Assembly (NCBI GenBank): GCA_947475525.1
Contig: CANJMI010000005.1
Coordinates: 1 to 64,000 of the forward strand
From: Polyangiaceae bacterium
Lineage (GTDB): Bacteria > Myxococcota_A > Polyangia > Polyangiales > Polyangiaceae
Direction: 5' to 3'
Length of the DNA stretch: 64,000 bases
Position numbers and translations under genes: made by a program
Notes under the pieces: generated by a model
Databases searched by the model: none
What the model was told of the DNA's origin: nothing
What the model saw: the letters and a program-made list of their open reading frames with translations, nothing else
In this document: positions 43,830 through 46,549 of the stretch, piece after piece
Layout: each line of letters opens with the position of its first letter
Position numbering within the stretch: position 1 is the first letter of the stretch

Positions 43830-43890
43830 AACAAAAAAACAGCGAGACACACGCCAGTCCACACGCCTCCCCTGGCGTGTGTCTCGCTGA
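43830..43890 (-). terminator. Strong intrinsic terminator of the histone-like gene
   Basis: Perfect 18-bp inverted repeat: arms 43841-43858 and 43873-43890, 14-base loop. On the minus strand the hairpin is followed directly by TTTTTTTGTTT (43840-43830). It lies about 210 bases beyond the stop of the histone-like gene (44102) and is the clearest terminator in the window. Confidence 0.9.
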
Positions 43891-44101: not shown

Positions 44102-44553
44102 TCACTCCGACTCGTCATCCACCGAAAACTTCGGTGGCATCGGCAACACGGCGGGTGCTGCTGAATGAGCTGGGGTGGCCTTCACGATCGAAGCAGCAAC
44201 CGGCTTTGCGACCGGCTTTGCAACCGGCTTTGCGACCGGCTTTGCAACCGGCTTCGCAACCGGCTTTGCAACCGGCTTCGCAACCGGCTTTGCAACCGGC
44301 TTCGCGACCGGCTTTGCAACCGCGGCTTTTTTGGCCGCTGGCTTCTTGGCTGCTTTCGTCAGCTTGGCTTTCTTAGCGCGAGCGGGCGCCTTGGCCGCCT
44401 GCTTCCGCGTCGCGCTCAGGCTTTTTTTGCGGCCTTCTTGGGGGCGGCCTTCTTGGCCACCTTCTTCACAGCAGCCTTCTTGGGGGCAGCCTTTTTCGCA
44501 GCAGCCTTCTTGGGGGCGGCTTTCTTCGCAGCAGCCTTCTTCTTTGCAGCCAT
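44102..44553 (-). CDS. Histone-H1-like DNA-binding protein, read by apparent -1 frameshift
   Basis: ATG 44553 is fixed by AGGAGG eight bases upstream. The zero frame encodes a Lys/Ala/Pro-rich protein (MAAKKKAAAKKAAPKK...) and stops at TGA 44416 after 45 codons. Immediately before that stop is GCA_AAA_AAA_GCC_TGA, containing the canonical slippery heptamer A_AAA_AAA. Slipping back one base continues as SLSATRKQAAKAPARAKKAK, then ten KPVA repeats, and an acidic end PPKFSVDDESE, stopping at 44102: about 150 residues, typical of myxobacterial H1-like proteins that compact the nucleoid. Both frames are clearly coding in composition. A sequencing error or a real mutation in the A7 run would look the same. 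Confidence 0.82.
44196..44315 (-). repeat. Ten tandem 12-bp units encoding KPVA
   Basis: Units alternate between GCAACCGGCTTT, GCGACCGGCTTT and their TTC variants on the plus strand. They encode the KPVA arm of the histone-like protein. Copy number is a natural target for slippage. Confidence 0.92.
44422..44428 (-). promoter_or_regulatory. A_AAA_AAA slippery heptamer (recoding site)
   Basis: Seven A on the minus strand positioned in the X_XXY_YYZ register of the zero frame, followed by GCC then TGA. This is the best bacterial -1 slip sequence together with A_AAA_AAG, and the two flanking frames together give one continuous histone-like protein. Confidence 0.6.
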
Positions 44554-44644
44554 GTCTCAATCCTCCTGAGATCTGCAGCGCCAGGCTCGGCTCGCATGCG
44601 TCAGCGCATGGTTCGACGAGCAGGGTGTAACAGATGTTGCAAGA

Positions 44645-44725: not shown

Positions 44726-44755
44726 TTGACTTCGGCACCCGTTCGGCCATATCGG
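44726..44755 (+). promoter_or_regulatory. Possible promoter of the OmpA lipoprotein gene
   Basis: TTGACT at 44726-44731, 18-base spacer, TATCGG at 44750-44755. The -10 is a poor match; the position 34 bases before ATG 44789 is reasonable. Confidence 0.35.
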
Positions 44756-44788
44756 CGGATTGATTTCGGTGTAGTGTGCTCGGCGCCT

Positions 44789-45601
44789 ATGAGCCTGAAG
44801 TCTCAGCTTGCCTCGCTCGCACTGGTGTCGCTCGTCGCGACGGGCTGCGGCTATTCCGAAGAGGAGATGCGCGCGAAGCTCCGCGAGGTTGACGCGCTGC
44901 GGCAACAGCTCTCGGCCGAAGGCGCCCAAAATAAGAAGTTTCAACGCGACCTCGACGAGTCCCGGGCCCAGATCGAACAGTTGAAGAGCCAACTCTCCGA
45001 CGCGAACGTCGATGTGGCCAACCTCAAGAGCGACGTAGAAGAGAAGGCCAGAGCCCTCGAAGAGTTCAAGCGACGGGCCGCACAGCTCGAGGAGATCAAG
45101 CGTCGCTTCGAGCTCTTGCGGGCCAAGCTCCAGGATCTCACGAAGCTCGGGCTCAAGGTGACCGTGCGCCACAATCGAATGGTGATCGAGCTTCCGGGCG
45201 ACGTCCTCTTCGACTCCGGCCGCGAAACCTTGAAGAAGCAGGGCGAGGACATCCTGGCCAAGGTCGCCGAGATCGTTCGGCGTGACGCCGCGCTGATGGA
45301 GCGCGATTTTCAAGTCGCCGGCCACACGGACAACGAGACCTACGGAGCCGGTGCGTTCAAGGACAACTGGGGGCTCAGCGTGATGCGGGCCCGCGAGGTG
45401 CTCGGCTTCTTGATCAAAGGCGAGGCAAACAAGGGCGGCGGACTGAGCCCCCAGCGCTGGAGCGCCTCGGGCTATGGGGACACCGATCCGGTTGCCCCGA
45501 ATGATACCGCGACTGGCCGTCAGTCGAACCGGCGCTGCGAGTTGGTGGTTCTCCCGAAGATCGAAGAGATGCTGGATCTCAAGTCGATCACTGGGGATTG
45601 A
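44789..45601 (+). CDS. OmpA-family lipoprotein with coiled-coil stalk
   Basis: 270 residues from ATG 44789, which gives lipobox VATGCG at residue 20. Residues about 25-120 form a long coiled coil (EVDALRQQLSAEGAQNKKFQ to EEFKRRAAQLEEIKRR). Residues about 135-255 form an OmpA-like peptidoglycan-binding domain: ELPGDVLFDSGRETLKKQGE, FQVAGHTDNETYGAG, WGLSVMRAREVLGFL, SASGYGDTDPVAPNDTATGR and NRRCELVVLP. It should link outer membrane to the cell wall through an extended rod. The next gene starts 3 bp after its stop. Confidence 0.92.
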   Translation: MSLKSQLASLALVSLVATGCGYSEEEMRAKLREVDALRQQLSAEGAQNKKFQRDLDESRAQIEQLKSQLSDANVDVANLKSDVEEKARALEEFKRRAAQLEEIKRRFELLRAKLQDLTKLGLKVTVRHNRMVIELPGDVLFDSGRETLKKQGEDILAKVAEIVRRDAALMERDFQVAGHTDNETYGAGAFKDNWGLSVMRAREVLGFLIKGEANKGGGLSPQRWSASGYGDTDPVAPNDTATGRQSNRRCELVVLPKIEEMLDLKSITGD

Positions 45602-45604
45602 GAC

Positions 45605-46549
45605 GTGAGCGAATCGAAGGCTTCATCGCCAGCGAGCCGCGTCGCCACGATAGACATCGGCACCAATTCGGTGCTGCTGCTCGTGGCCGCTCGTGACGGT
45701 AGTCACGTCCGTGCCCTCACCGAGTTGGCCACCATCACGCGGCTCGGCGAAGGAGTCGATGCAACCGGCGAGCTGTCCGAGGCCGCGGAGGCGCGCACGC
45801 TCGCTTGCCTCGAGCGGTACGCTTCGGAAATCGCCAAGTGGAGCGTCGACCGCGTGGAAGCCGTCGGAACGAGCGCCATGCGCGACGCTCGGGGCGGCTC
45901 GGCCTTCTGCGACCGCGCGCAAGCCATCCTCGGCGTGCGACCGAGCGTGATTAGCGGCGAACGGGAAGCGCAGCTCACGTTCGACGGTGCGTTGATCGGA
46001 CTCGAGCCGCAGGGCATCCTCGCGGTCTTCGACATCGGCGGCGGCAGCACCGAGATCATCGTCGGAGCAAGGGTCGGGCGAGGCCGCGGCACGCTGGCTC
46101 GTGCGGTCAGCCTCGATATCGGCGCGGTGCGCCTGACCGAGCGTCACTGCCACCACGATCCTCCCACCCGTAGCGAACTCGACGCCGTTCGTAAGGACAT
46201 TCGGCTCGCCCTCAAGCGCGCGCCCGCCCTGAAGGGTCGCCCGCTCGTAGGTGTCGCCGGGACCGTCACGACGCTGACCGCGTACGTTCACGACATCGCG
46301 CCCTACGACCCGAGGCGAGTGCACGGGGCCGTCCTGGCCCGTACCGAGCTCAGCGAGGCCATCGACCGACTCGCCGCGATGCCACTCGCGGAACGCCGCG
46401 GCTTGGCTGCCATCGAGCCGAACCGCGCCGACGTCATCGTGGCCGGCGCGCTGATCGCTGACGAAATTTGCGAGGCTTCAGGTGCGGACCGTCTTCTCGC
46501 TTCCGACCGCGGAGTGCGTTGGGGCCTCGCTGTGGAATTGTTCGACTGA
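45605..46549 (+). CDS. Ppx/GppA phosphatase family protein
   Basis: 314 residues, GTG start 3 bp after the OmpA gene. Actin-like ATPase fold motifs: ATIDIGTNSVLLLVAARDG (phosphate 1), VEAVGTSAMRDA, VISGEREAQLTFDGAL, ILAVFDIGGGSTEIIVG (phosphate 2) and VGVAGTVTTLTAYVH. The length of about 310 corresponds to the short Ppx/GppA form without the C-terminal HD domain. It hydrolyses exopolyphosphate and/or the pppGpp gamma phosphate in the cytoplasm. Confidence 0.92.
   Translation: MSESKASSPASRVATIDIGTNSVLLLVAARDGSHVRALTELATITRLGEGVDATGELSEAAEARTLACLERYASEIAKWSVDRVEAVGTSAMRDARGGSAFCDRAQAILGVRPSVISGEREAQLTFDGALIGLEPQGILAVFDIGGGSTEIIVGARVGRGRGTLARAVSLDIGAVRLTERHCHHDPPTRSELDAVRKDIRLALKRAPALKGRPLVGVAGTVTTLTAYVHDIAPYDPRRVHGAVLARTELSEAIDRLAAMPLAERRGLAAIEPNRADVIVAGALIADEICEASGADRLLASDRGVRWGLAVELFD

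Follow-up and report, generated by a model that had tools for sequence, protein, structure and literature searches.

Apart from insertion sequences, only a small number of bacterial housekeeping genes are known to use conserved recoding, among them dnaX, magnesium chelatase, copA, and prfB. The gene described here, which lies in a 64,000-nucleotide stretch of Polyangiaceae DNA from a lake myxobacterium analyzed as a whole (hereafter the window), would share with dnaX a -1 slip at tRNA-Lys codons within an A-rich heptamer, a putative downstream stem, and two predicted products with a common N-terminus. The two genes are unrelated, however, and the shift would here be needed for the longer protein; the dnaX (tau/gamma) arrangement also has a reversed form, with the zero-frame stop immediately after the site of the shift (PMC5009743). 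The heptamer in the window is A_AAA_AAA, whereas the A_AAA_AAG type is found only in relatives. Frameshifted magnesium chelatase genes likewise combine a -1 shift on a poly-A run, of species-variable length (A7, A9, A11), with production of a fusion, and in E. coli this family gives about 10% shift at A7, about 40% at A9, and about 63% at A11 (PMC3711429). Their protein is again unrelated, and the shift there is a measured one, whereas that of the present gene is predicted. The orfA/orfB pair of the IS3 family also has an A-rich X_XXY_YYZ motif followed by a structure (PMC4066793); the present gene differs in being chromosomal, in conserved synteny, with no transposase or mobile element.

With respect to its product, the gene resembles AlgP (PMC9239181), the chlamydial proteins Hc1 and Hc2, and the NCBIfam family hist_H1_lk_Burk, all of which are rich in Lys/Ala/Pro with KPVA-type repeats, disordered, and very basic, but it has an acidic tail and scores below the NCBIfam cut-offs. 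The fusion reached 16.4 of the 80 bits set for NF038053 and 12.8 of the 135 bits set for NF038052, and no Pfam family was found above its cut-off, a match to the Pfam 'PT repeat' falling below it as well. The term histone-H1-like is used as a description by composition (short, very basic, with Lys/Ala/Pro repeats) of what would be a disordered protein of DNA-binding type. A frameshift is not mentioned in the AlgP paper (PMC9239181), and a literature search found no recoded gene for an H1-like, nucleoid, or histone-like protein.

The arrangement in the window is summarized in the table below. An earlier note on this DNA had described a zero frame of 45 codons led by a Shine-Dalgarno sequence and joined by a -1 slip to a frame of 106 codons with the same Lys/Ala/Pro composition; its coordinates, register, and composition are right, and the predicted fusion of 150 residues was confirmed from the sequence. 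The zero frame is Lys/Ala-rich and ends GCC GCA AAA AAA GCC TGA, placing a slippery X_XXY_YYZ motif, in register with the zero frame, just 5' of its stop. The extension opens AGC CTG AGC (SLSATRKQ...), the first base of its first codon being the last A of the A7 run, which is read twice, and continues with Lys/Ala/Pro-rich (AKPV)n repeats to the tail LPMPPKFSVDDESE. The junction peptide of the fusion would be ...KKAAKKSLSATR, or more fully ...KKAAKK-SLSATRKQAAKAPARAKK..., and the net charge is +19 for the short form and about +39 for the fusion. Runs of at least seven A or T number only seven in the whole window; together with the scarcity of A7 in unsplit orthologues and the recurrence of the split in relatives, both described below, this indicates an arrangement that exceeds chance.

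Table 1. Features of the candidate recoded gene and its divergent neighbor (window coordinates).
Feature	Position	Strand	Remarks
Shine-Dalgarno sequence AGGAGG	44562..44567	minus	8 nt 5' of ATG; from sequence
Zero-frame ORF, 45 codons	44416..44553	minus	ATG at 44553, TGA at 44418-44416; MAAKKKAAAKKAAP...KKAAKKA, then stop
Slippery heptamer A_AAA_AAA	44422..44428	minus	register GC(A AAA AAA)GCC TGA; identical in G003 and G001
Spacer GCCTG, 5 nt, heptamer to stem	44417..44421	minus	includes first two bases of zero-frame TGA
Putative stimulatory hairpin, 5' arm AGCGCGA-C-GCGG-AA-GC	44401..44416	minus	invariant in three species
Loop or weakly paired apex	44388..44400	minus	differs between species; 3/5 third positions vary
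Hairpin 3' arm GC-CCGC-TCGCGCT	44375..44387	minus	invariant in three species
-1-frame extension, 106 codons and stop	44102..44421	minus	TGA at 44104-44102
OmpA-family lipoprotein gene, divergent	44726..45601	plus	anchor for orthologous loci

Within the extension, near-perfect 12-bp tandem repeats (AAGCCGGTNGCN) at 44207-44315 encode AKPV, and the window differs in their copy number from its congeners G001 and G003, in the manner of length-variable H1-like genes. A match to an Rfam group II intron domain over these repeats was rejected as chance (21.2 bits against a gathering threshold of 49).

Orthologous loci were located through the divergent OmpA-family neighbor, and a protein search with the low-complexity extension returned mostly noise beyond the genus. 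The locus is present in three of the four other genomes of the genus (G003, G001, and G004) and is split alike in all three; the fourth, G002, which is 67% complete, lacks it. In G003 and G001, the A7 run and its 35-nt surroundings are identical to those of the window, while G004 has an A9 run, GCA AAA AAA AAC TGA, after which the -1 frame reads KKKLSSSRKAPAKK. In the neighboring genus g55, the gene is split at AGT AAA AAA AAG TAA (A8) in G076 and at GCA AAA AAA AAG TAG (A9) in G075, the tail lying in the -1 frame in both; the G075 gene has its two ends on separate contigs, and its full length is not visible. A zero-frame stop at the run with a -1-frame tail is accordingly common to all six species (G000, the genome of the window, with G003, G001, G004, G076, and G075), that is, to every readable orthologue of the genus and its neighbor. 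In the OmpA tree, the six group in a single clade (support 100/99) that also includes G077, whose histone-like gene is not assembled; the G077 contig stops short of the gene, and a search there for the tail motif gave no match. Five neighboring genes are syntenic in four of the split species.

These comparisons bear directly on the alternative that an indel has interrupted a gene that is truly one open frame, an event that the earlier note had placed in the read or the cell and that might also lie in the assembly. The site is indeed a homopolymer, and one added base would open the frame, but the split orthologues come from independently assembled metagenome-assembled genomes with different isolate names and accessions, three of which share an A7 run in identical 35-nt surroundings and three more of which are split with other run lengths. 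Sequencing error is effectively excluded, since five related species retain the split and a second family shows it again, and the probability left to an indel of any origin is negligible. The earlier note had named relatives with A6 or A8 and an open frame as grounds for abandoning its reading; no related species with an uninterrupted frame at the A-run was found, and the A8 relative G076 is itself split. Retention of the split with A7, A7, A9, A8, and A9 runs instead supports the programmed -1 frameshift that the note had raised as a possibility. On the evidence of these genomes, the split is shown to be real and conserved.

Among the other genera of the family, which also includes Sorangium and Polyangium, and of the order, more than 60 distinct orthologues adjoin the same OmpA gene as single open reading frames. 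Some are long (about 100-150 aa) and end in acidic DESE, DDEE, or DGEE, whereas short ones (37-67 aa) close with ...KKAAKKA or a similar sequence, resembling the zero-frame product. The recoded clade appears to make from one gene both of the forms that other genera encode singly. Among the -1-frame ends of the split clade are PPKFSVDDESE in the window, PPNFSVDDDSE, PPNFGMDDEAE, PPNFGPYGDESE, and PPRFGPYGDESE, and these are matched by unsplit genes of genus g43 that end PPNFGGGDESE. The PPxF...DESE-type motif ends most, not all, of the split-gene tails, that of G003 lacking DESE and ending ...STPSTNA. Lysine codons in the unsplit orthologues are AAG in 1973 cases and AAA in 127, and A7 runs occur in two of 66 of these genes, so the AAA AAA that follows GCA is not a matter of codon preference.

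The short-only version is found in several genera (loci L089-L106; g13, g21, g44, g58, and others), so some lineages can do without the tail. This lends some weight to a reading in which function has been lost, only the 45-residue peptide being made and the downstream frame being what is left, in decay, of an older long gene. Such decay is nevertheless improbable, since the -1 frame is open in six of six species with a conserved tail motif and since a remnant would not retain an A run and its frame relation across two genera. It is also opposed by the pattern of substitution. Differences between the window and G001 in the extension fall 9/14/28 on the first, second, and third positions of the -1-frame codons (p=0.003), the pattern of a frame that is read as protein. 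In a comparison of the three A7 species, third positions vary in none of the 17 codons that cover the slip site and both hairpin arms, in 3 of 5 in the loop, and in 49 of 84 in the remaining gene (0/17 vs 52/89 when the loop is counted with the rest; Fisher p=3.5e-6). At the level of sequence comparison, these counts show coding constraint on the -1 frame and, for the slip site and stem arms, constraint that goes beyond the protein sequence, the slip site and the -1 frame alike being conserved across species.

Two separate proteins might also be produced by termination and reinitiation, with no fusion, as the zero-frame stop is near the start of the second frame. This was rejected because the extension lacks usable starts: in the window, G004, and G076, the first ATG, GTG, or TTG comes only at codons 78, 83, and 70 of extensions of 106, 96, and 93 codons, respectively, with no Shine-Dalgarno sequence, and reinitiation is accordingly given very little credence.

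The earlier note had suggested looking for a stem 5-9 bases 3' of the heptamer, and a putative hairpin with invariant arms begins exactly 5 nt after the A7 run, within the 5-8 nt reported for bacterial stimulatory structures (PMC4066793). Its folding energy is -22.5 kcal/mol, with a z of -0.25 against shuffled sequence and, in a second calculation on the A7 species, z values of -0.9 to -2.2, so that the notion of a thermodynamically exceptional stem is unsupported. The hairpin is no more stable than shuffles because the gene is G+C-rich throughout, and the case for the stem consequently lies in its position and invariance. The three A7 species are close, for which reason no compensatory base changes are visible. 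In the A9 relatives G004 and G075, the window-type hairpin is missing or takes another form, no clear stem being found 3' of the run in G075, and a strong structure (z -3.2) lies 3' of the A8G site in G076. Put simply, lengthening of the run may make a stem unnecessary.

The preferred explanation, in which we place high confidence, is programmed -1 ribosomal frameshifting at A7 that would shade into transcriptional slippage at runs of at least nine A, and very likely the cells obtain two proteins, one short and one long, from this single gene by slipping one base back. Most ribosomes would translate the zero frame and stop at the TGA two codons past the slippery site, yielding an all-basic peptide of 45 residues. 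Some would slip back one base with tRNA-Lys on A_AAA_AAA, aided by the hairpin, and proceed in the -1 frame, adding about 106 residues of K/A/P repeats and the conserved acidic tail. Slippage presumably occurs with an efficiency like that in the E. coli reporters of another gene, and both forms would be expected to bind DNA, with different effects. At runs of A8-A9 (A9-A10 in the second family), the two products could arise by ribosomal slippage, RNA-polymerase slippage, or both.

The strongest competing account is transcriptional slippage throughout, in which the polymerase adds or drops an A and mixed mRNAs yield both products without a ribosomal shift. Such slippage is evident from about nine A in many bacteria (PMC1088944), a length reached by the A9-A10 runs of G004, G075, G168, G170, and G169, and the A9 run within the window's own genus favors at least a partial role, as does the lack of a clear stem in G075. 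The window, G003, and G001 have only A7, however, which is below about nine A/T, their run and the stop lie in exact X_XXY_YYZ register, and a hairpin with constrained arms 5 nt downstream suits ribosomal slippage. The A7 run and stem of the window are thus best fitted by slippage on the ribosome, while the A9 relatives could use either mechanism (PMC3711429; PMC1088944). As a full explanation, slippage of the polymerase is regarded as unlikely, if still a serious competitor.

The second family, f10, emerged from a phylum-level pattern search of 377 genomes, in which one genome matched in another family of the same order. This genome, G170, has 42 codons ending GCC GCA AAA AAA AAG TAA (A9), with KKKVSKRAPLKAKGSAKKAAK...TFSSSN continuing in the -1 frame, and its congener G168 has the same A9 arrangement with the stop TAG. 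G169 (locus L215, CTACGACCATAGGAGGGT site) carries an A10 run from which the conserved tail is reached by +1 or -2, not -1; this other frame would be easily served only by an indel-type mechanism, which favors transcriptional slippage, and the A10 run may be either an assembly error or a sign of polymerase slippage in that lineage. The tails of G170, G168, and G169 are mutually related. Only the short form is present in G172 and G173, of another f10 genus, which suggests an independent origin in f10 and not inheritance, and the f10 split probably arose independently of that in Polyangiaceae. A wider proposal, put forward tentatively and with more doubt than conviction, is that recoding of an H1-like nucleoid protein arose at least twice in myxobacteria and that its efficiency, through run length and stem, would set the ratio of tail-less to acidic-tailed forms, perhaps in response to growth via lysyl-tRNA supply. 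If slippage does set the ratio of two DNA-compacting isoforms, the A7, A8, A9, and A10 genes, with or without a stem, are natural variants of it, and they offer a comparative series for the origin of recoding signals and the trade-off between run length and structure. Automatic annotation would cut such recoded genes short.

The surroundings of the gene provide further observations. Between two convergent gene ends, at 43841-43888, there is an inverted repeat with perfect arms of 17 bp (AGCGAGACACACGCCAG / CTGGCGTGTGTCTCGCT), of which the genome holds no other close copy except one match with three mismatches. The arms are species-specific in sequence with pairing retained, and the 14-nt loop has a GTCCACACGCCT segment in common with G003 and G004; the repeat is possibly a terminator with a conserved loop. 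On the other side, beside the OmpA gene, the gene at 45605-46549, whose product can be read from its sequence as a probable PPX/GppA-type phosphatase, is syntenic in G001, G003, G004, and G076. The H1-like AlgP of Pseudomonas organizes polyphosphate granules (PMC9239181), and with such a phosphatase gene nearby it is conceivable that the H1-like protein is connected with polyphosphate.
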